NCBI GenBank assembly: GCA_944322935.1
Contig: CALUQO010000012.1
Location: 1 to 60,824, forward strand
Direction: 5' to 3'
DNA: 60,824 nucleotides
Source of the DNA: Candidatus Gastranaerophilales bacterium
Lineage (GTDB): Bacteria; Cyanobacteriota; Vampirovibrionia; Gastranaerophilales; Gastranaerophilaceae
A model generated the notes under the pieces. It was not told the origin of the DNA. It was given only the letters and a program-made list of their open reading frames with translations, and did no database searches. Shown piece after piece: positions 33,416 through 60,824 of this stretch. A program made the position numbers and the translations under genes. Each line of letters starts with the position of its first letter. Position 1 is the first letter of the stretch.

Positions 33416-33721
33416 TTATTCTAATATTGGCGGAACCGGTTTTGGAGTTTTAGGCAGTTGGGGGGTGTCTTCGTACACTTTAACCGTATAAACTTCACTT
33501 GCGGCGGCTCTGTTATAGGTTTTTAGCAAATTTTGCAATGAGGTGTTAAAGACAACATAAGTTTTATCGGTAAGCTGGACTGATGTTCGTTTTTGGCCGT
33601 TTATATCACTGTCAAGTTCTTTCATAGACGTAATATATTTTGCATTGACCGCGATATTGTCTTTGTCTGAATAAATTAATCCCTTGAAAGACGGGGTAAA
33701 ATTAAGCGGACTGATACCCAT
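33416..33721 (-). CDS. Small unknown protein with N-terminal FKG motif
   Basis: The 101-aa protein belongs to no family I know. ATG at 33721 (MGISPLNF) is chosen because AAAGGA lies 8 nt upstream; the longer frame lacks one. Residues 12-14 are FKG, in the context PSFKGLIYS, a motif shared at a similar position with the proteins at 39660, 45216, 45696 and 47616. The middle is rich in alternating polar and hydrophobic residues (SVQLTDKTYVVFNTSLQNLL), suggesting a small alpha/beta domain. The C-terminus is Pro-rich (TPQLPKTPKPVPPILE). No signal peptide is visible. Confidence 0.7.
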   Translation of the reverse strand: MGISPLNFTPSFKGLIYSDKDNIAVNAKYITSMKELDSDINGQKRTSVQLTDKTYVVFNTSLQNLLKTYNRAAASEVYTVKVYEDTPQLPKTPKPVPPILE

Positions 33722-39659: not shown

Positions 39660-40364
39660 TTATTTTTTAGGTGTTTCCCGCGCTACAAATTTAATATTCA
39701 AAATTTTGGAAAGATTAACACGCAGTGGATTTTGTACTTCCTGAATTTTTATAAAGCTGTCCATATTACGGGCTGTTTCCAGCATTTTTGCTCTACTGAT
39801 ATACATATCGGTAATAAATTGTTCTGTATTGCTGTTGTCGACAAAACCGAGACCACTGTAGTATTTTTTTAAATCTATACGGCTGTTTTTTAACACATCA
39901 AGCCCTATTTTTCTTGTGTTATTCTTTTCGCAGTTGTAAAAAAGCAGCTTGAACAAGCTTGTTCCGGCAAGTTTTACATAATTGTTTTGGGAAACGGGCC
40001 ATGATGCTATATTATCAAGATAACAATCCGGCATGTTTTTATAGCTTATTATTGCACAAGGGTTTTTATCTTTTACAAGCAAAAATGAGTTTTGCGGTTC
40101 GTCAAAACCTGCCATCAATACAGCATTATTTATTATTTTTTTCCACGAGCGCAGCATCCTGTCGGGATAATTTTGCCCTTCAGTTAATTTTTTCAGTTTG
40201 ATTCCGGCGGACATTGCGTCAAGAAAATTTCTGTCGGAATATTCCAGCTTGTATGCATTTAATGTTTGACTGCAGTTTTGTAAAGTTGTTTTTATAACGG
40301 CATATTCGCGAGCTTTAAAAGCTATTGGAATCTTTTTATTTTCAATAATTTTGTTAATCTTCAT
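39660..40364 (-). CDS. GNAT-like unknown protein with FKA motif
   Basis: The 234-aa protein has an N-terminal IAFKA (residues 14-18, in PIAFKARE) like the FKG motif of four other proteins in the window. The central part resembles a GNAT acetyltransferase fold: strands around NSFLLVKDKNPCAIISYK, a motif-A-like helix KLAGTSLFKLLFYNCEKN, GLDVLKNSRIDLKKYY and the GLGF end of motif B. The acceptor is unknown and key residues cannot be checked. The start has no strong ribosome binding site. It is a single gene whose stop faces the small-RNA terminator. Confidence 0.68.
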   Translation of the reverse strand: MKINKIIENKKIPIAFKAREYAVIKTTLQNCSQTLNAYKLEYSDRNFLDAMSAGIKLKKLTEGQNYPDRMLRSWKKIINNAVLMAGFDEPQNSFLLVKDKNPCAIISYKNMPDCYLDNIASWPVSQNNYVKLAGTSLFKLLFYNCEKNNTRKIGLDVLKNSRIDLKKYYSGLGFVDNSNTEQFITDMYISRAKMLETARNMDSFIKIQEVQNPLRVNLSKILNIKFVARETPKK

Positions 40365-45695: not shown

Positions 45696-47435
45696 TTACA
45701 AATTATTGTAAAATGCGCCGAAGGTGTTTGTGTTTGCATTTTTTTGTATAAACTCGCTGTTAAGCTTCATTTTGTCGGCTGCTGTGTTAGGATTTTGTTT
45801 TGCAGCTTTTTTGTTTTCTGCGTATTTTGTGATTGCTATGTTAAGCTTTGGAATGCCGACACCGAGTACAACGCCTGAATATAAGTAGCCCAGCAGTTGA
45901 GCGGCGTTTTTGTATTTGAGTTTGGAAAGCGTTTCTTTGACGATTTTTTGTGTTTCTGCAGATGCGCCTTCTTTTGCCGCAACGGCTTTTAGCTCGGACA
46001 TAAGTTTTCTGAACGGAACAGCTTTGCCGTTTTTGTCTACGGTTTGTATGCCGAATTTCTTAAGTGCAGGGAACAGGATTTCTTCGTGAGTTTTTTCAAC
46101 AGAATGCTGAATAAACTTCCAGATACCTTTTCCGTGTTTTGCTTCGTCGTAGTTGATAATACCCTTGTTAAATGCTTTAGCTGCAAGTTTGGAAACAAAT
46201 CCGCCCAAAATCAGCCAGTTTGCAAAACCGAGCGAATCTTTAATTGCGGATTCTCTTGCTTCGTTCTTGTCACGGGCAGCAAGAATACGGCTCATAATCG
46301 TCATACCGTAGATAAACTTAAACTGGTTGATAGTAGGAACCATTCCCTTGTATTGAAGGTTTGAAAGAAGCTCTTTAGCAGCTTTTGGCAGGTTTGTGTA
46401 AAGCTCGGAGGGCTTTTTAAGGATAGTCGAAATCATGGCAGAACCCATACCCACGCCGAGAATAAGTTTTGCAATTTTAAAGCCGGTTGAATGGTCAGGC
46501 TCTCTGCCTTCAACACCGACAAAACCGTCAGAACCGGTACGTTTTTTAGTAAGATATCTGTTGATAGGCTGAGCAGACATCCCGACTGCAACAGGGAATG
46601 CAAGGCCGGCAGCAACGGTTGCCGCCTTTTTGTTTTTAATACCTTTCAGAAATTTTTCCAAGTCTTCGACAATGGCGGTTTTGTCATGTTTTGCTTTGTC
46701 AGTAACAGCCTTAAGCATAGAGTTTGCGTTGCTTGTGAGGTCTTTTATCGGAGCTTCTATTGCGTCTGGATTGTTTTTGACGGAAACACGGAAAGTAGCG
46801 CCTGCGCCTGTTTCGCCGGTAATAAGTTCCGATACCTGCGCAAGAATGGAGTCTGATACTTTATATTTTTTAGCGCCCTCTTTTGCCATTAAGTCTGATG
46901 CTTTTTGTATTGTGTCTTCGGAAAGCTTTTTCCAGCTGTTTGCACCGTCTGTTGTGTTAAAGCCCTCTACGCTTCTAAAGAAAGTTTCCCAGTACTTTTT
47001 GGCATCATAGCCTTTTGTTTTGTCGGCGCTGTCATTAACAAACTCTTTAAACGTGTCTATTGCATTGGCATCCATAAACATAAGATGAGCCTTGACACCG
47101 TTTGCTTTGTTGAATGCCGCAGAAACCGCATACCCGGCACCCAGCCCGACAATACCTGCAAGGGCATGGTTTACTGTACCGGATGATTCTCTGAAACCTG
47201 TTTCAAAACCGGCATCTTTTGAACGACCGAAGTCTACAATGGTTCTTGGCATAACCATTGAGAAAAAGTCTATAAAACACGCGCCGATAGCCGGACTTGT
47301 GTTCAGCCAATTGAGTGTTTGTGTGCCTAATGCTCCGAGCCCCTTAAAGTTGGGATTGTTTTTTCTGTCATTTTTTAGGGGAGTTGAGTACTTTAATGTT
47401 TTCGGTTGTTGAGTTTGTGTAATTTGCGATAGCAT
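45696..47435 (-). CDS. FKG-motif membrane protein, paralog A
   Basis: The 579-aa protein is of no family I can name. FKG is at residues 30-32 (NNPNFKGLGALG). A block around residues 60-85 reads MVMPRTIVDF...TGFRESSGT, followed by a Gly-rich hydrophobic helix (ALAGIVGLGAGYAVSAAF). Further hydrophobic stretches surround GMSAQPINRYLTKKRTG (about 285-300) and SRILAARDKNEAR (about 385). The neighbour at 47616 shares all of these blocks, so the two are ancient duplicates. The polar N-terminus is not a signal peptide. Several membrane segments are likely. Confidence 0.82.
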   Translation of the reverse strand: MLSQITQTQQPKTLKYSTPLKNDRKNNPNFKGLGALGTQTLNWLNTSPAIGACFIDFFSMVMPRTIVDFGRSKDAGFETGFRESSGTVNHALAGIVGLGAGYAVSAAFNKANGVKAHLMFMDANAIDTFKEFVNDSADKTKGYDAKKYWETFFRSVEGFNTTDGANSWKKLSEDTIQKASDLMAKEGAKKYKVSDSILAQVSELITGETGAGATFRVSVKNNPDAIEAPIKDLTSNANSMLKAVTDKAKHDKTAIVEDLEKFLKGIKNKKAATVAAGLAFPVAVGMSAQPINRYLTKKRTGSDGFVGVEGREPDHSTGFKIAKLILGVGMGSAMISTILKKPSELYTNLPKAAKELLSNLQYKGMVPTINQFKFIYGMTIMSRILAARDKNEARESAIKDSLGFANWLILGGFVSKLAAKAFNKGIINYDEAKHGKGIWKFIQHSVEKTHEEILFPALKKFGIQTVDKNGKAVPFRKLMSELKAVAAKEGASAETQKIVKETLSKLKYKNAAQLLGYLYSGVVLGVGIPKLNIAITKYAENKKAAKQNPNTAADKMKLNSEFIQKNANTNTFGAFYNNL

Positions 47436-47615
47436 ATATTGTCCTGTTTTTTTAATTTGTTTTATCTAATCTAGTGTCGCAGTTGCTGCCGGCTGACCGC
47501 AGCCAGCACCTGCTCACCTTTTCAATGTGTCACTCGCCTACACTTAACTTTGTTAAGTTCCGGTGACAGGCTCACAAGTATCGCTTACGCTCTACTGTTC
47601 GCTTTGTCAAAAAAT

Positions 47616-49247
47616 TTATTTTGCTTTGTTCATCATCATACCAAACGCCTGAAAAGTTTTTTTGTTGCTAGTTAAATTTAAAGACGGGTAGGTGTGGAAA
47701 CTGTTATATTTTTCTGCCATTTCTTTTTGGACTTTTCTTTCTGTCTGCTTTCTCACATACCAGGGTACAAGCATACCGAGAATAAGCATTGAAAATCCGA
47801 GAGATGCACCTTCGCAGAGATATCTTAGGTTTTTGGCATGTTTGGATACTTTTGCGGCTTCGCCGAAGGTTTTTAGTTCCGTGCCGCTTGCCCAGTGAGC
47901 AACATTTTTACCGAAGTCAACGATGGCATTGTTTGTCTTTTTCGGTGCATTTTTAGTATAGTTCAAAAGCGGAATTTTTGTAAACTTTTGCAGAACATAT
48001 CCCACACCTTTTGCAACATAATCACCTAAGAAGTACAAGCTGCAGAAGGTTGCAATGTCTCTCCAGGTAACTTCATGAAGCTCGTTTTTGTCTTCGGAAG
48101 CTAACATACGGCTTGCAAAAGTAGATGTGGCAATCCATCTGCATTGGTCCATTGTAGGCATATTTTTTGTAAACTGCAGACCTTTTAAAATATTAGACAG
48201 GCTGGATTTGTCTTTTAAAGAAGCATAAGCAACTCCCACCATCAAAGCTGCGGCACCCAGTTTTTGCAGCAGGAAAGAAGATTTTTCTTTCGGGCTCATT
48301 TCTCTTTTCTTTCTCTGCGTGCCGAAATCTTTGTAAATCGGTGCGCCTTCCTGACCGGAGGTTTTTCTTGTAATCCATCTGTTTATGGATTGCATTGAAG
48401 CTGCAAGAGGAATAACAATGGCAAGACCCAAAAAGCTCTTTTTGTTGATAAAGCGTTTTGATTCTTTAAAGTAGTTGTTAAGTTCTTTTCCGACTGCTTT
48501 GGCAACTGCTTCTGAACGAGAACCGGTGAGTTTGCCTGATTTAAAGTCTTTTGCAACTTCGCGTACTGCTGTTCTTTTATGTTCCAAAAAGTCCTGACCC
48601 ACATCCATTGCGTCTCTGAGCAGTGTATGTAAATCTGCGTGGTAGGTTTTGCCTGCTATTTTAATATGCTTTGAAGCACCTGTCGTTTCCAGAACTTTTT
48701 TCTCTAAGTTAGAAACGGCTGCTGCTTTTTCCTTTTTGGTTGCAAGCTTGTTTGCCATTGTTTTGGCAAATTCCATACGCTCATTTTCAAGATTTATGCC
48801 CTTTAGCGGTTTCCATTCGTGTCCGTTCAGCACGCTGATGTCATCGAGCAATTTATTTGTAAAGCTTCTTGATCCGCCTTTTGCCTCGAGAAAATGTTTG
48901 TTTAAAGTTGTGATAGCGTCCTGGTTTGCCCATTTTGAAGCCATTCCCTTATCTTTCGGATTAAGAAATTCCAGAGCTTTGGCCACTCCGTAAACAATAA
49001 AACCGGGGATAAGACAGTTTACGATAAGACCTGATGACTCACGTCTAAAGGTTTCCGCAGCTGCAAAGCCGTTTGTTTTGGCGTCAACATATGTTCTTGG
49101 CAAAATTGCTGTTGCAAGGTCAATTATGGAAACGTTTATAATTTCAGGCGGTATTCCCTTAAAAGACTGTCTGTCTTGGCTTTTAGAAACGGCCGGTTGT
49201 ATATTTGATTTTTTGTAAACTTCTGTCTTGTTAATTTGTGTAATCAT
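47616..49247 (-). CDS. FKG-motif membrane protein, paralog B
   Basis: The 543-aa protein is a divergent paralog of the one at 45696. FKG is at residues 29-31 (RQSFKGIPPEI). The shared blocks are ILPRTYVDA, ETFRRESSG, MQSINRWITRKTSG and SRMLASEDKNEL, in the same order and at similar distances. Hydrophobic segments occur at IPGFIVYGVAKAL, FLGLAIVIPLAA, LGAAALMVGVAYA and SLGFSMLILGMLVPWYV, so it is probably a membrane protein. The middle is Lys/Glu-rich. It lies 180 bp upstream of paralog A, with its own leader. No function is known. Confidence 0.82.
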   Translation of the reverse strand: MITQINKTEVYKKSNIQPAVSKSQDRQSFKGIPPEIINVSIIDLATAILPRTYVDAKTNGFAAAETFRRESSGLIVNCLIPGFIVYGVAKALEFLNPKDKGMASKWANQDAITTLNKHFLEAKGGSRSFTNKLLDDISVLNGHEWKPLKGINLENERMEFAKTMANKLATKKEKAAAVSNLEKKVLETTGASKHIKIAGKTYHADLHTLLRDAMDVGQDFLEHKRTAVREVAKDFKSGKLTGSRSEAVAKAVGKELNNYFKESKRFINKKSFLGLAIVIPLAASMQSINRWITRKTSGQEGAPIYKDFGTQRKKREMSPKEKSSFLLQKLGAAALMVGVAYASLKDKSSLSNILKGLQFTKNMPTMDQCRWIATSTFASRMLASEDKNELHEVTWRDIATFCSLYFLGDYVAKGVGYVLQKFTKIPLLNYTKNAPKKTNNAIVDFGKNVAHWASGTELKTFGEAAKVSKHAKNLRYLCEGASLGFSMLILGMLVPWYVRKQTERKVQKEMAEKYNSFHTYPSLNLTSNKKTFQAFGMMMNKAK

Positions 49248-49848
49248 AACTGTTAGTCTAACTAGTGTCTTTTATATCGAAAATTTAAAATTTTAGGTGA
49301 GATGTACATCTATATGATATGAAAGACCTGATATAAATACAAATCACGTAAAAAAATAATTTGCTATTTGAAAATGTAAAAATTGTTGAACCTCTTTTTA
49401 AAAAAGTGATTTTTTATTTAATGATAAATAAGTTTTTTAAGTAAAATACTTTTTTATATAAATTTGCTTTTTTAATTTTTTAAAAATTTTTTTAAATTCA
49501 AATTTACAAAACTTAACAAATCTGCTCGGGCGGCTGTATGTATCATAAAATCATTGTCGGATTGGCGGGAGGTGTGATCTGTCCCCCAAAAAACGTAATC
49601 AATCAGTTGGACGTATTTAAAATAAAAAGTATCAAAGAAAGCTCAAAACGCCGGAAAGATTCTGAACACAAACGGCTGATAAAGACTCCAAAAGCTTGAT
49701 GCTTCAGAATGACAGCAGAATTTTGTGTTGGGCAGGTATGAAGTGTACCCTTAAAAACGTAATCGATGAGTAGGAGAATTAATTAATTTATAAAAATGTC
49801 AGATAAACAAATAAAGATTTATGCATTATTTGCACCCCATTCTTTGAA

Positions 49849-49897
49849 AAGAACTCTGTGTAAAACGTGCCACAGGCACCTTTTACACAGAGTTCTT
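49849..49897. repeat. Long near-perfect hairpin
   Basis: The 17-bp perfect arms AAGAACTCTGTGTAAAA and TTTTACACAGAGTTCTT enclose GTGCC/GGCAC after one C-C mismatch, giving 22 pairs with the loop ACA. The run ACAAAGGTCGTTTTTTT follows, so it could terminate transcription. ACAAAGGTCG recurs at 52658 and, reversed, near 60518. Confidence 0.85.
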
Positions 49898-49986
49898 ACA
49901 AAGGTCGTTTTTTTATCAACATTCTTTACCGCGTAAGCGGTGATGATTGTTATTTATTTCCATTTTCAAATGCGACAATAACAATA

Positions 49987-50034
49987 ACGGCTCACTTTGT
50001 GAGCCGTAGGGGGTTCGGGGCGAAGCCCTGATGG
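49987..50034 (+). repeat. Double-hairpin repeat, copy 1
   Basis: ACGGCTCAC-TTT-GTGAGCCGT is followed by AGGGGGTTCGGGGCGAAGCCC and TGATGG. A second copy lies at 60712-60759 with ACGGCTTAC-AAA-GTAAGCCGT: one C-G pair becomes T-A, a compensatory change. The second hairpin is GGGC-GAA-GCCC here and GGGC-GTA-GCCC there. Confidence 0.85.
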
Positions 50035-50166
50035 AATACGATTAGAGATTTTTAACGAAGGAATGAAAATTTACCGTACCGATTTTGACATTTTTGGAGT
50101 GGACGGAAATTTTCGTTTCTGAGTCTTAAAATCTCTTTTGAATAGCGCCGGTGTTCTTTCTTTTGC

Positions 50167-50213
50167 GATACTTTTCTTTCTTTGCCTGCGCAATACAAAG
50201 AAAGAAAAGTATC
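50167..50213. repeat. 18-bp perfect hairpin
   Basis: The arms GATACTTTTCTTTCTTTG and CAAAGAAAGAAAAGTATC are separated by 11 nt. Part of the right arm (AAAGTATCAAAGAAA) recurs just after it and at about 49627, showing it is repeat-derived. Confidence 0.85.
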
Positions 50214-50675
50214 AAAGAAAAGAAAAACGTATTTTACGCAACAAACAAAATATAGATTCCACCATTGGTCAGATTCTGAACACAAACGATTGGTGAGTGT
50301 TTCAAAAGCCTGATGCTTCAGAATGACAGCGAGATTTTGCGTTGGGCAGGTATCTGTCCCCCAAAAAACGTAATTTATGTGCAGGGGGATGAATTCTATT
50401 GCGCATATTCCAAGCACAAACAATTGAAGTGTGCTTTAAAAATTGATGCTTCAGAATGACAGCGAGATTCTTGCAGGCATGTGACGCCATTGTCAGCGGT
50501 GTGCAGGAGTATGACATTAATCTACATGTTAATATTTTTACTAAACGTGTGACAAAAGAGAAAATCTTTCTTTTTAATTATTGAGAGAATCAGATAAGAA
50601 TTAGGGAGAATCAGGTCTTTTAATTTTCATAAAATTTTTAATAATGGTATTAGATACATCATAAAAGGACGCAAA

Positions 50676-51850: not shown

Positions 51851-52450
51851 ATGTTGGAAAACTATATAAACTATTTAAACTTTTTAAATGACAAACTGAC
51901 AACTTTTTTTCATAAGCAAAAACCTTATATACGCTGCAAAGAGGGTTGCGCAAAATGCTGCCAAAATGCAGAGTTTCCGTTTTCTCAAATTGAGGTTTCT
52001 TATTTGATGATGGGTATAAGCAAACTGGATATGGAAACCAAAAATATCATTGCGGATAACGTAAAGAGGATAAAAGAAGAAAAGAGAAATTTTAAGGGTG
52101 AGGGTACATTTCTTTACGATTGTCCGTTTTTAATAAACGACAAATGCTCTGTCTACGAGCACAGGGGGATAATATGTCGAATTTTCGGGCTTTTGTATAT
52201 AGGTTCCAACGGCAGAACACAGGTTCCTTTTTGCTGTTTTCAGGGGCTGAACTATGCCAACGTACTTGCCGACGACCAGAGTACAATTTCTGCGGAAAAA
52301 TTTAAAGCCTCGGGCATTGAAGAAGAGCCGGTTGCTTTTAATATCAGATACAGCTTTTTGACAGGCCCTGACTTTGAGCAAAAATTCAACTTTGCTTTTG
52401 GTGAAAAAAAACCGCTTATTGATTGGTTTGTTGAAATAGATGAAGCTTAA
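51851..52450 (+). CDS. YkgJ-family cysteine-cluster protein
   Basis: The 199-aa protein has the cysteine pattern CKEGCAKCC near residue 29, then CPFL and KCSVYEHRGIICRIFG around 90-115, and FCCFQG. This matches the UPF0153/YkgJ family, which is thought to bind zinc or an iron-sulfur cluster; its function is not settled. AGGGA is upstream of ATG. It stands alone after the chimeric pseudogene, with a spacer of about 175 bp. Confidence 0.88.
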   Translation: MLENYINYLNFLNDKLTTFFHKQKPYIRCKEGCAKCCQNAEFPFSQIEVSYLMMGISKLDMETKNIIADNVKRIKEEKRNFKGEGTFLYDCPFLINDKCSVYEHRGIICRIFGLLYIGSNGRTQVPFCCFQGLNYANVLADDQSTISAEKFKASGIEEEPVAFNIRYSFLTGPDFEQKFNFAFGEKKPLIDWFVEIDEA

Positions 52451-52874
52451 CAAATTTTTTATATTGCCAGAACTTACTAAAGATAATGGCCGTATTGCGT
52501 GCAGTATCTGCCCGATAACTTAAAATGCCGTTATTTTATATATTTTACGTAATTTGATGACGGATTTTTTTGTTTTTTGTTTAAAAATGCAGGTAATTAT
52601 GCAGATTCGTAGGTCAGGCAATGCCTGACCTATTCAATTTTGATTGCGGAGCCCTTACAAAGGTCGGCTATAAGGCTACATACATAAATAATAATGTTTT
52701 TATTTAAAAAATGTCCTACTGATTGATTACGTTTTTTGAGGGGACAGAACAATTAAGGCCGGCAGTTAAGACTGTTTTGGTAATCAGATATTACCAAAAC
52801 ATTTTTTTGCGGCGCTAAATCCGTGATTTACCAATTACGTTTTTAAAGGCACAGTGTTCACGGGAAAATACCGA
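52451..52874. other. Spacer with repeats between convergent genes
   Basis: This 424-bp spacer holds the hairpin AGGTCAGGC-AAT-GCCTGACCT (52612-52632), a CTTACAAAGGTCGG repeat piece at about 52654, the reversed 71-bp repeat at 52677-52747 and a TAAATC-CGT-GATTTA palindrome at about 52815-52831 followed by a minus-strand ACGTAATTGG piece. No coding sequence is seen. Confidence 0.6.
52677..52747 (-). repeat. 71-bp dispersed repeat, reversed copy
   Basis: Read on the minus strand it begins CTGTCCCCTCAAAAAACGTA and ends TTATTTATGTATGTA. It matches 57304-57372 over nearly its full length with few differences. Shorter relatives lie at 49579 and 50354. Confidence 0.85.
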
Positions 52875-57176: not shown

Positions 57177-57303
57177 ACCAAAATTGTACCCTATGCAAAA
57201 AATAAAATCACGTATGTAACAAAATTATCAAAATACATTTGATTCGTGGGCTCGATTCCATCCGCGGGCATATCACGGATTTTTTTCGTTGGAAGTCTAT
57301 GCT

Positions 57304-57372
57304 CTGTCCCCGAAAAATGTAATCAATCAGCAGGACGTTTTTAAGATAAAAACATTATTATTTATGTATGTA
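57304..57372 (+). repeat. 69-bp dispersed repeat, forward copy
   Basis: It starts CTGTCCCCGAAAAATGTAAT and ends TTATTTATGTATGTA, matching the reversed copy at 52677-52747. It is followed directly by the TGATGCTTCAGAATGACAGC module, so the families combine into larger composites. Confidence 0.85.
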
Positions 57373-57542
57373 TTGAAAGCCTGATGCTTCAGAATGACAG
57401 CAGGATTTTGCGTTGGGCAGGGTACGCCCAACCGACGTTCCATCATTGATTTTGCCGCTCCCCGTCCGGCCCTCCCTAATTAAAAAATTGGGGGGGAGGT
57501 CAGGAGCAGTTGACAATATGAAGTGGTATTTCTGCGAAAATC

Positions 57543-60216: not shown

Positions 60217-60824
60217 AATTTCTCCTTTTGATAATTTCCCTATCTAAGTGTAGCAACATTCACTATAATATTATACATCAAAAGGTTATATTTTCTATAT
60301 CATTTTGTGCAAACTTTATAATAATGTTACATAAATAATTGTCGTTACGTGTAAAAGCAATGACGAATAATTTAACGGGGGACGAAGTGAGAGGGGGGCT
60401 GTATGCGAGCATTCTCCTTGAAGCAAAGGGAGCTTTGCAATACAAGATGTCATCCGTGTATATGTTACGTAATTCGATGACAGAAATAATTTTTTCTTAA
60501 CATAAATAATAAAAATCCGACCTTTGTAAGGACTCCACAAGCACGATTGAGTGTCGTAGGGCAGACTTCAGTCTGCCATTAACATTCTTGATACAGTCAA
60601 AAATCCTACTGTCATTCTTGTATATGTTACGTAATTTGGTGACAAATTTTGTAACAATTATTATGAAAATATAATTATTTTATACAGTTTGATGTTCACT
60701 GTTTATTATACACGGCTTACAAAGTAAGCCGTAGGGGGTTCGGGGCGTAGCCCTGATGGGACTTTGGTTAGAAACAGTTGTGTTTTGAGAAGATTTTGAC
60801 CACAGCTTGTCGTGGCAAAATCTT
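60217..60824. other. Right-end spacer with repeats
   Basis: This spacer of 608 bp runs to the window end. Contents are a TATAATAATG near 60316, GACCTTTGTAAGG (60518) as a reversed ACAAAGGTC repeat, GGCAGACT/AGTCTGCC (60561-60578), the phrase ATATGTTACGTAATT twice (60461 and 60622) and the double-hairpin repeat at 60712. No gene is seen. Confidence 0.6.
60712..60759 (+). repeat. Double-hairpin repeat, copy 2
   Basis: ACGGCTTAC-AAA-GTAAGCCGT is followed by AGGGGGTTCGGGGCGTAGCCC and TGATGG. Compared with 49987-50034 the first stem keeps pairing through a C-G to T-A change and the loop is TTT versus AAA. Confidence 0.85.

Follow-up and report, generated by a model that had tools for sequence, protein, structure and literature searches.

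Background

Membrane-integral pyrophosphatases are polytopic helical proteins with internal repeats, about 700 residues in length, while SemiSWEETs, within the SWEET/PQ-loop group, are separately encoded half-proteins. These are the described systems closest to two proteins, P0001 and P0002, encoded by neighboring genes in a 60,824-nucleotide stretch of DNA from a Candidatus Gastranaerophilales bacterium (NCBI GenBank assembly GCA_944322935.1, contig CALUQO010000012.1, positions 1 to 60,824), called the window in the following. Pyrophosphatases (e.g. 5lzr, 4av3) are the top structural neighbour of the models of both proteins, with Z 6.9 (rmsd 4.0, 141 residues) and 5.7 (rmsd 3.2, 121 residues), values which are below the level that the tool calls meaningful for helical proteins and correspond to 5-8% identity; no Pfam match to the pyrophosphatase domain is listed up to E = 10, and the window proteins are shorter, with 543-579 residues. 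The likeness to SWEET/PQ-loop proteins is limited to the plan, consisting of three hydrophobic or short helices, a linking helix and three more, and to the occurrence of separately encoded halves, found both among SemiSWEETs and in split forms of the superfamily described here. The window proteins differ from SWEET/PQ-loop proteins by large inserts between helices b and c and by other conserved motifs; no SWEET/PQ-loop Pfam match is listed up to E = 10, and the fold match to the PQ-loop protein cystinosin (8dyp) has Z 3.0. In this comparison two homologous halves are supported, and helices a and 4 may or may not cross the membrane.

The first-pass annotation, made from the DNA letters, knew of no family for these proteins, and none was retrieved. 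Both P0001 and P0002 remain below every curated cut-off of Pfam-A and NCBIfam, and scanning 53 and 41 aligned members against Pfam and NCBIfam produced only scattered weak matches; no match to the family was found in PHROGs. Sequence profile searches of the PDB gave designed or chimeric coiled-coil proteins at best (E = 0.026 for A2, 0.063 for A3), and Foldseek comparison of both AlphaFold2 models with the PDB revealed nothing above background, the matches to the folds of membrane pyrophosphatase, glutamate transporter and AmtB being at background level. Assignment to a known family was accordingly discarded, and no report on the family was found in the open-access literature. Among the libraries searched, the superfamily is categorically new as a protein superfamily; no new mechanism is claimed.

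The tandem gene pair

The two open reading frames previously reported between 45696 and 49247 are both present, on the minus strand (Table 1). Pairwise protein comparison of P0001 and P0002 gave 25% identity, with E = 8e-16 and 1e-15, so that their resemblance is not due to chance; the earlier description of the two as adjacent paralogs is borne out, and they are, as judged from this similarity, diverged paralogs lying side by side.

In a 65-sequence tree, P0002 orthologs form one clade (support 100/100) and P0001 orthologs, together with single-copy relatives, form another (100/99). At 59 of the 78 relatives' loci the pair is found in the same order, upstream type first, on one strand. The clade formed by each copy and the preserved order indicate that the pair arose by an ancient tandem duplication and has been retained since. 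The intergenic gap in relatives keeping the pair ranges from -4 to 91 nt; P0001 and P0002 very probably constitute one operon. The gene neighbours vary between groups of loci and, inspected by eye from sequence, are what we take to be ATP synthase-like, ribosomal L35/L20, alanine racemase-like or tRNA nucleotidyltransferase-like genes; no neighbour indicating a substrate was found at the relatives' loci examined.

Table 1. Location of genes, motifs, repeat elements and spacer in the window. Residues are numbered on the respective protein; AF2 indicates the AlphaFold2 model.
Feature	Protein	Residues	Coordinates	Strand	Remarks
Gene, upstream ('up') member of tandem pair	P0002		47616..49247	-	ORF, 543 aa
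Leader motif F29-K-G31	P0002	29-31	49155..49163	-	F29 invariant in 41 orthologs
Repeat 1: helix a, RE-loop, helix b	P0002	34-95	48963..49148	-	AF2 helices 34-56, 60-95
Block PRTYVD	P0002	50-55			
Block FRRESSG	P0002	67-73			
Repeat 1: helix c ending INRWITRKTSG	P0002	264-298	48354..48458	-	AF2 helix 244-297
Block QSINRWITRKTSG	P0002	286-298			
Repeat 2: helix a, RE-loop (SRMLASEDKNEL...RD), helix b	P0002	366-423	47979..48152	-	AF2, segment match
Block SRMLASEDKNEL	P0002	379-390			
Repeat 2: helix c	P0002	477-512	47712..47819	-	AF2, segment match
Spacer between P0002 and P0001			47436..47615	.	180 nt; includes a piece of a dispersed repeat
Gene, downstream ('down') member of tandem pair	P0001		45696..47435	-	ORF, 579 aa
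Leader motif F30-K-G32	P0001	30-32	47340..47348	-	F30 invariant in 53 aligned members
Repeat 1: helix a, RE-loop (PRTIVD...RESSG), helix b	P0001	48-112	47100..47294	-	AF2 helices 48-69, 73-112
Block PRTIVD	P0001	63-68			
Block FRESSG	P0001	81-86			
Repeat 1: helix c ending QPINRYLTKKRTG	P0001	267-301	46533..46637	-	AF2 helix 259-300
Block QPINRYLTKKRTG	P0001	289-301			
Hydrophobic helix 4 between repeats	P0001	321-340	46416..46475	-	Hydropathy, AF2 helix 317-336
Repeat 2: helix a, RE-loop (SRILAARDKNEARES..KD), helix b	P0001	369-422	46170..46331	-	AF2, segment match
Block SRILAARDKNEA	P0001	382-393			
Repeat 2: helix c	P0001	510-545	45801..45908	-	AF2, segment match
Gene with FKG leader	P0003		45216..45683	-	155 aa; 12 nt downstream of P0001

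Members and distribution of the superfamily

A count of the paralogs, proposed in the first-pass annotation as a check, gave nine superfamily genes in the 2.3-Mb genome of the window. These are P0001 and P0002, a gene on contig C7 whose product is fused to TM1506/DUF1893, the two genes of a split pair on contig C22, and one gene on each of contigs C13, C11, C9 and C14. The fused protein (L200:2287-4134) carries before its FKG a TM1506/DUF1893 domain (PF08973, E = 2.5e-22), which is absent from P0001 and P0002, and the same N-terminal sequence occurs in C7 orthologs from seven other genomes of the genus. Its gene overlaps a gene for a 5'-nucleotidase-type metallophosphatase (L200:4131-5573), whose product starts with MKSTVNFKG and has no evident signal peptide. 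The metallophosphatase was rejected as a partner of the C7 paralog, since the overlap is found in only three of the eight loci examined, one other locus being cut by a contig end.

Matches to each of P0001 and P0002 were detected in 37 of 40 close relatives, and the family profile matches 202 of the 289 genomes of the class; 14 of these belong to two families outside the order (E = 1e-22 to 1e-6). These profile matches place distant members of the superfamily in a second lineage of the class. The second-half profile finds matches in 129 of 130 genomes sampled from the family, in most cases 4 to 10 per genome, numbers which over-count genes, as one gene can yield several matches; in the phylum sample it gave only two matches outside the order, at chance level (E about 0.005). 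The superfamily is lineage-restricted and nearly universal in the sampled genomes of the family, in keeping with its earlier description as lineage-specific, with distant members in the second lineage of the class. The named relatives are Candidatus Gastranaerophilales metagenome assemblies, along with some apparently mislabelled records. In three genomes (G011, G205, G027) profile searches detected no copies of P0001 or P0002, which may reflect losses or assembly gaps; G011, from the same genus and with an assembly only 94% complete, retains both C13 and the split pair, and G205 has no match to either profile.

Conserved blocks and internal repeats

Four ordered blocks shared by P0001 and P0002 had been noticed at first reading. 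In an alignment of 24 sequences, taken from the genus and from other families of the order, all four recur in third members, and many invariant columns fall within or beside them. In P0001 numbering these are D56, P63, E78, E83, Q289, N292, T296, G301, R383, N391 and D400. Conservation is concentrated at the ends of helices, within charged loops, and not in the inserts or the leader, and a His/Cys/Ser catalytic signature is absent from the order-wide invariant columns. The RESSG block had been singled out as the best candidate functional site. Its core is indeed conserved across the wider family, reduced to R-E, as distant members read RExxG or R[DE]xxG and the two serines are not universal; it is not a lone site, being one of two copies of a R...E..R[ED] loop, which goes together with an [IL]NxxxT[KR] element that is likewise repeated.

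Both proteins contain the two copies of a - RE-loop - b - insert - c[NxxxT] unit by which the superfamily is recognized. Each unit is composed of a F-x-[GA] leader, a short helix a with Arg at its end, an E..R[ED] loop, and two membrane helices, b and c, separated by a variable insert of about 80-160 residues; helix c ends with [IL]NxxxT[KR]. In some distant relatives the halves are encoded by two adjacent genes, abutting or overlapping by 4 nt, and most of these separately encoded halves bear their own F-x-[GN]-like leader. For this reason profiles of the N-terminal and C-terminal halves, built on 156 sequences each, were compared, by using as controls a reversed profile and 100 column-block shuffles.

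The two profiles match end to end with E = 1.6e-5 and a score of 40.2, against 23.4 for the reversed control and a maximum of 29.8 (median 14.3) for the shuffles. As the full-length score is driven by the helix-c segment, helices a-b and helix c were evaluated separately: the former scored 21.8 against a shuffle maximum of 16.2, the latter 39.2 (E = 2.6e-8) against 31.6, with 100 shuffles in each case, and the two matching segments follow the same order in both halves. The second-half profile, from which C13 is absent, also matches the first half of this paralog (E = 2.1e-8), in addition to its second half (E = 3.7e-5 and 2.7e-5), and matches helix c of the first half of P0001 (E = 0.0054). 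Comparisons of single proteins were not convincing (pairwise Z from -0.4 to 2.4), nor was the low-diversity C13 group alone (score 16.6, shuffle median 15.5). The internal duplication is well supported by sequence comparison; it rests on diverse profiles and is not beyond doubt.

Predicted structure and topology

Structure prediction, also proposed at first reading, gave good AlphaFold2 models with identical helix order for P0001 (pLDDT 84.7, pTM 0.80) and P0002 (pLDDT 81.2, pTM 0.75), the leader of the latter having very low confidence before F29. Averaged over the alignment, hydropathy peaks at 1.2-2.1 in helices b, c and 4, which supports their prediction as membrane helices; the hydropathy of some helices is modest, and helix a is short. 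An envelope location, as suggested in the first-pass annotation, is likely from hydropathy; the 'envelope module' based on FKG, as there stated, is not supported.

Provided that helices b and c cross the membrane, one face would hold the RE-loop, which joins a to b, together with the NxxxT terminus of c, and the inserts would be on the opposite face. Most probably the termini and the conserved motifs would be cytoplasmic and the variable inserts outside, as suggested by the positive stretches following the c helices and by the TM1506 domain, a soluble one, which one paralog carries N-terminally. Helix 4, located between the repeats in the window proteins, is absent from split forms, from at least one fused protein (L209) and, apparently, from paralog C13, and for this reason the relative orientation of the two repeats does not close: either helix 4 or helix a would not fully span the membrane, or orientations would vary between paralogs.

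Leader motif and surrounding DNA

Nearly every member has the FKG start in its leader, conserved in the form F-[KTGSN]-[GSA]. By using a more permissive pattern, F-x-[GNSA], a leader is found before the first repeat in 134 of 135 full-length close members, 60 of them having FKG. It precedes repeat 1 in P0001 and P0002, and repeat 2 in the C13, C11 and C14 paralogs. F-x-[GA] leaders are also found on unrelated proteins, such as the metallophosphatase, a GNAT-like protein and small orphans, and the leader may be a docking motif. At the N-termini of 73 non-family genes FK[GA] is 4.1-fold enriched (7 vs 12 elsewhere, p = 0.006; a small sample) and FG[AGN] is not; in a larger neighbour set most N-terminal FKG derive from ribosomal L20 and other housekeeping proteins. 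A genome-wide FKG tag was discarded, given the few genes involved and the lack of FG[AGN] enrichment.

The FKG start had been proposed to join P0001, P0002 and the small protein P0003 in one module. It is common to the first two and does not define a module with the third, since P0003 rarely adjoins the pair, having a homolog directly downstream of it at two of the 78 relatives' loci only (L066 and L067, close relatives), and since F-x-[GA] occurs on unrelated proteins and before repeat 2 of certain paralogs. In the window, co-transcription of P0003 with P0001 is plausible.

Apparently paralogous GNAT-like proteins with a FKA leader are encoded at 39660-40364 of the window, where the Pfam match is below cut-off (E = 0.011), and at L255:3-707. 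Small orphans with a FKG leader (MGISPLNFTPSFKG... and MNISFKG...), matching no Pfam family above cut-off, are located at 33416-33721 of the window and at L255:704-1252. Two similar cysteine-rich proteins (KPYI.CK.GC..CC) are encoded near superfamily members, at 51851-52450 of the window, 2.6 kb from the pair, and at L256:3407-3988, directly downstream of the C14 paralog; this may be a coincidence.

Upstream of the pair, the region 49250-50670 spans 1.4 kb without a convincing gene and contains several dispersed repeats, two of which (49657-49739 and 50271-50353) are 83% identical, along with a 23-bp inverted repeat at 49849-49897. Further copies of the dispersed repeats are found in the window at 52697-52751, 57300-57421 and 60712-60759, and the part contained in the spacer of the pair resembles a sequence elsewhere in L066 (84% identity over 74 nt). 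No Rfam element was found around the locus.

Functional interpretation

The reading preferred here, with a probability of roughly 0.38, is that P0001 and P0002 are inner-membrane proteins resembling transporters or channels, one face of which carries a conserved polar cluster. In this reading the two repeats would bring their RE-loops and NxxxT ends together at one membrane face, where charged and polar residues would build a pseudo-symmetric network. The conduit would work as an oligomer, in which P0001 and P0002 would pair as unlike subunits, as the separately encoded halves of other paralogs would do; this idea derives from the halves being encoded in neighbouring genes, with no gap between them or with an overlap of 4 nt. 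A conduit is favoured by the pseudo-symmetric repeats, the charged network at one face, the possible unlike subunits and the lack of a catalytic signature; against it, no transport or channel family was matched by sequence or fold. The leading alternative, nearly as probable, assigns the proteins a structural or assembly role in the envelope, within a hetero-oligomeric membrane complex that transports nothing, where variable inserts and F-x-[GA] leaders would dock other proteins. The nine paralogous genes in a 2.3-Mb genome, the separately encoded halves, the variability of the inserts, the leaders on unrelated proteins and the lack of substrate-linked gene neighbours would all suit such a role; the formation of a complex, however, is putative, and the conserved residues lie in charged loops at helix ends, as expected of a functional polar site within the membrane region.

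The same invariant charged residues at helix ends could be read as the active site, formed by R, E, D, N and T, of an enzyme bound to the membrane, whose substrate would be lipid-linked or a nucleotide, a reading to which the TM1506/DUF1893 fusion and the overlap with the metallophosphatase/5'-nucleotidase gene (three of eight loci) also point. It is nevertheless improbable, as the fusion is confined to one paralog, most loci of that paralog lack the metallophosphatase gene as a neighbour and no enzyme family was matched in Pfam, NCBIfam or PDB. Many copies per genome and dispersed DNA repeats around the locus might finally suggest selfish genes, or genes borne by mobile elements and spread by transfer, but this is very improbable in view of the order-wide pattern, the conserved gene order, the single clade formed by each copy and the lack of transposase or integrase domains in the members scanned; a phage or plasmid origin was discarded, as no relative was found in viral contigs or in phage and plasmid records.

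It is a rather unlikely, wider extension of these readings that a membrane architecture not seen before was invented once in the non-photosynthetic branch of the cyanobacteria, its unit having been fused, split and multiplied to about nine genes per genome to make a lineage-defining machine, with the F-x-[GA] leader as a common docking or sorting tag of its partners, soluble proteins among them. In any case, a nearly universal, multi-copy superfamily of an order common in the animal gut has no name, domain model or structural relative in the libraries searched. The repeat unit described here allows a domain model to be written, by which members in hundreds of genomes, now reported as hypothetical proteins, could be annotated.
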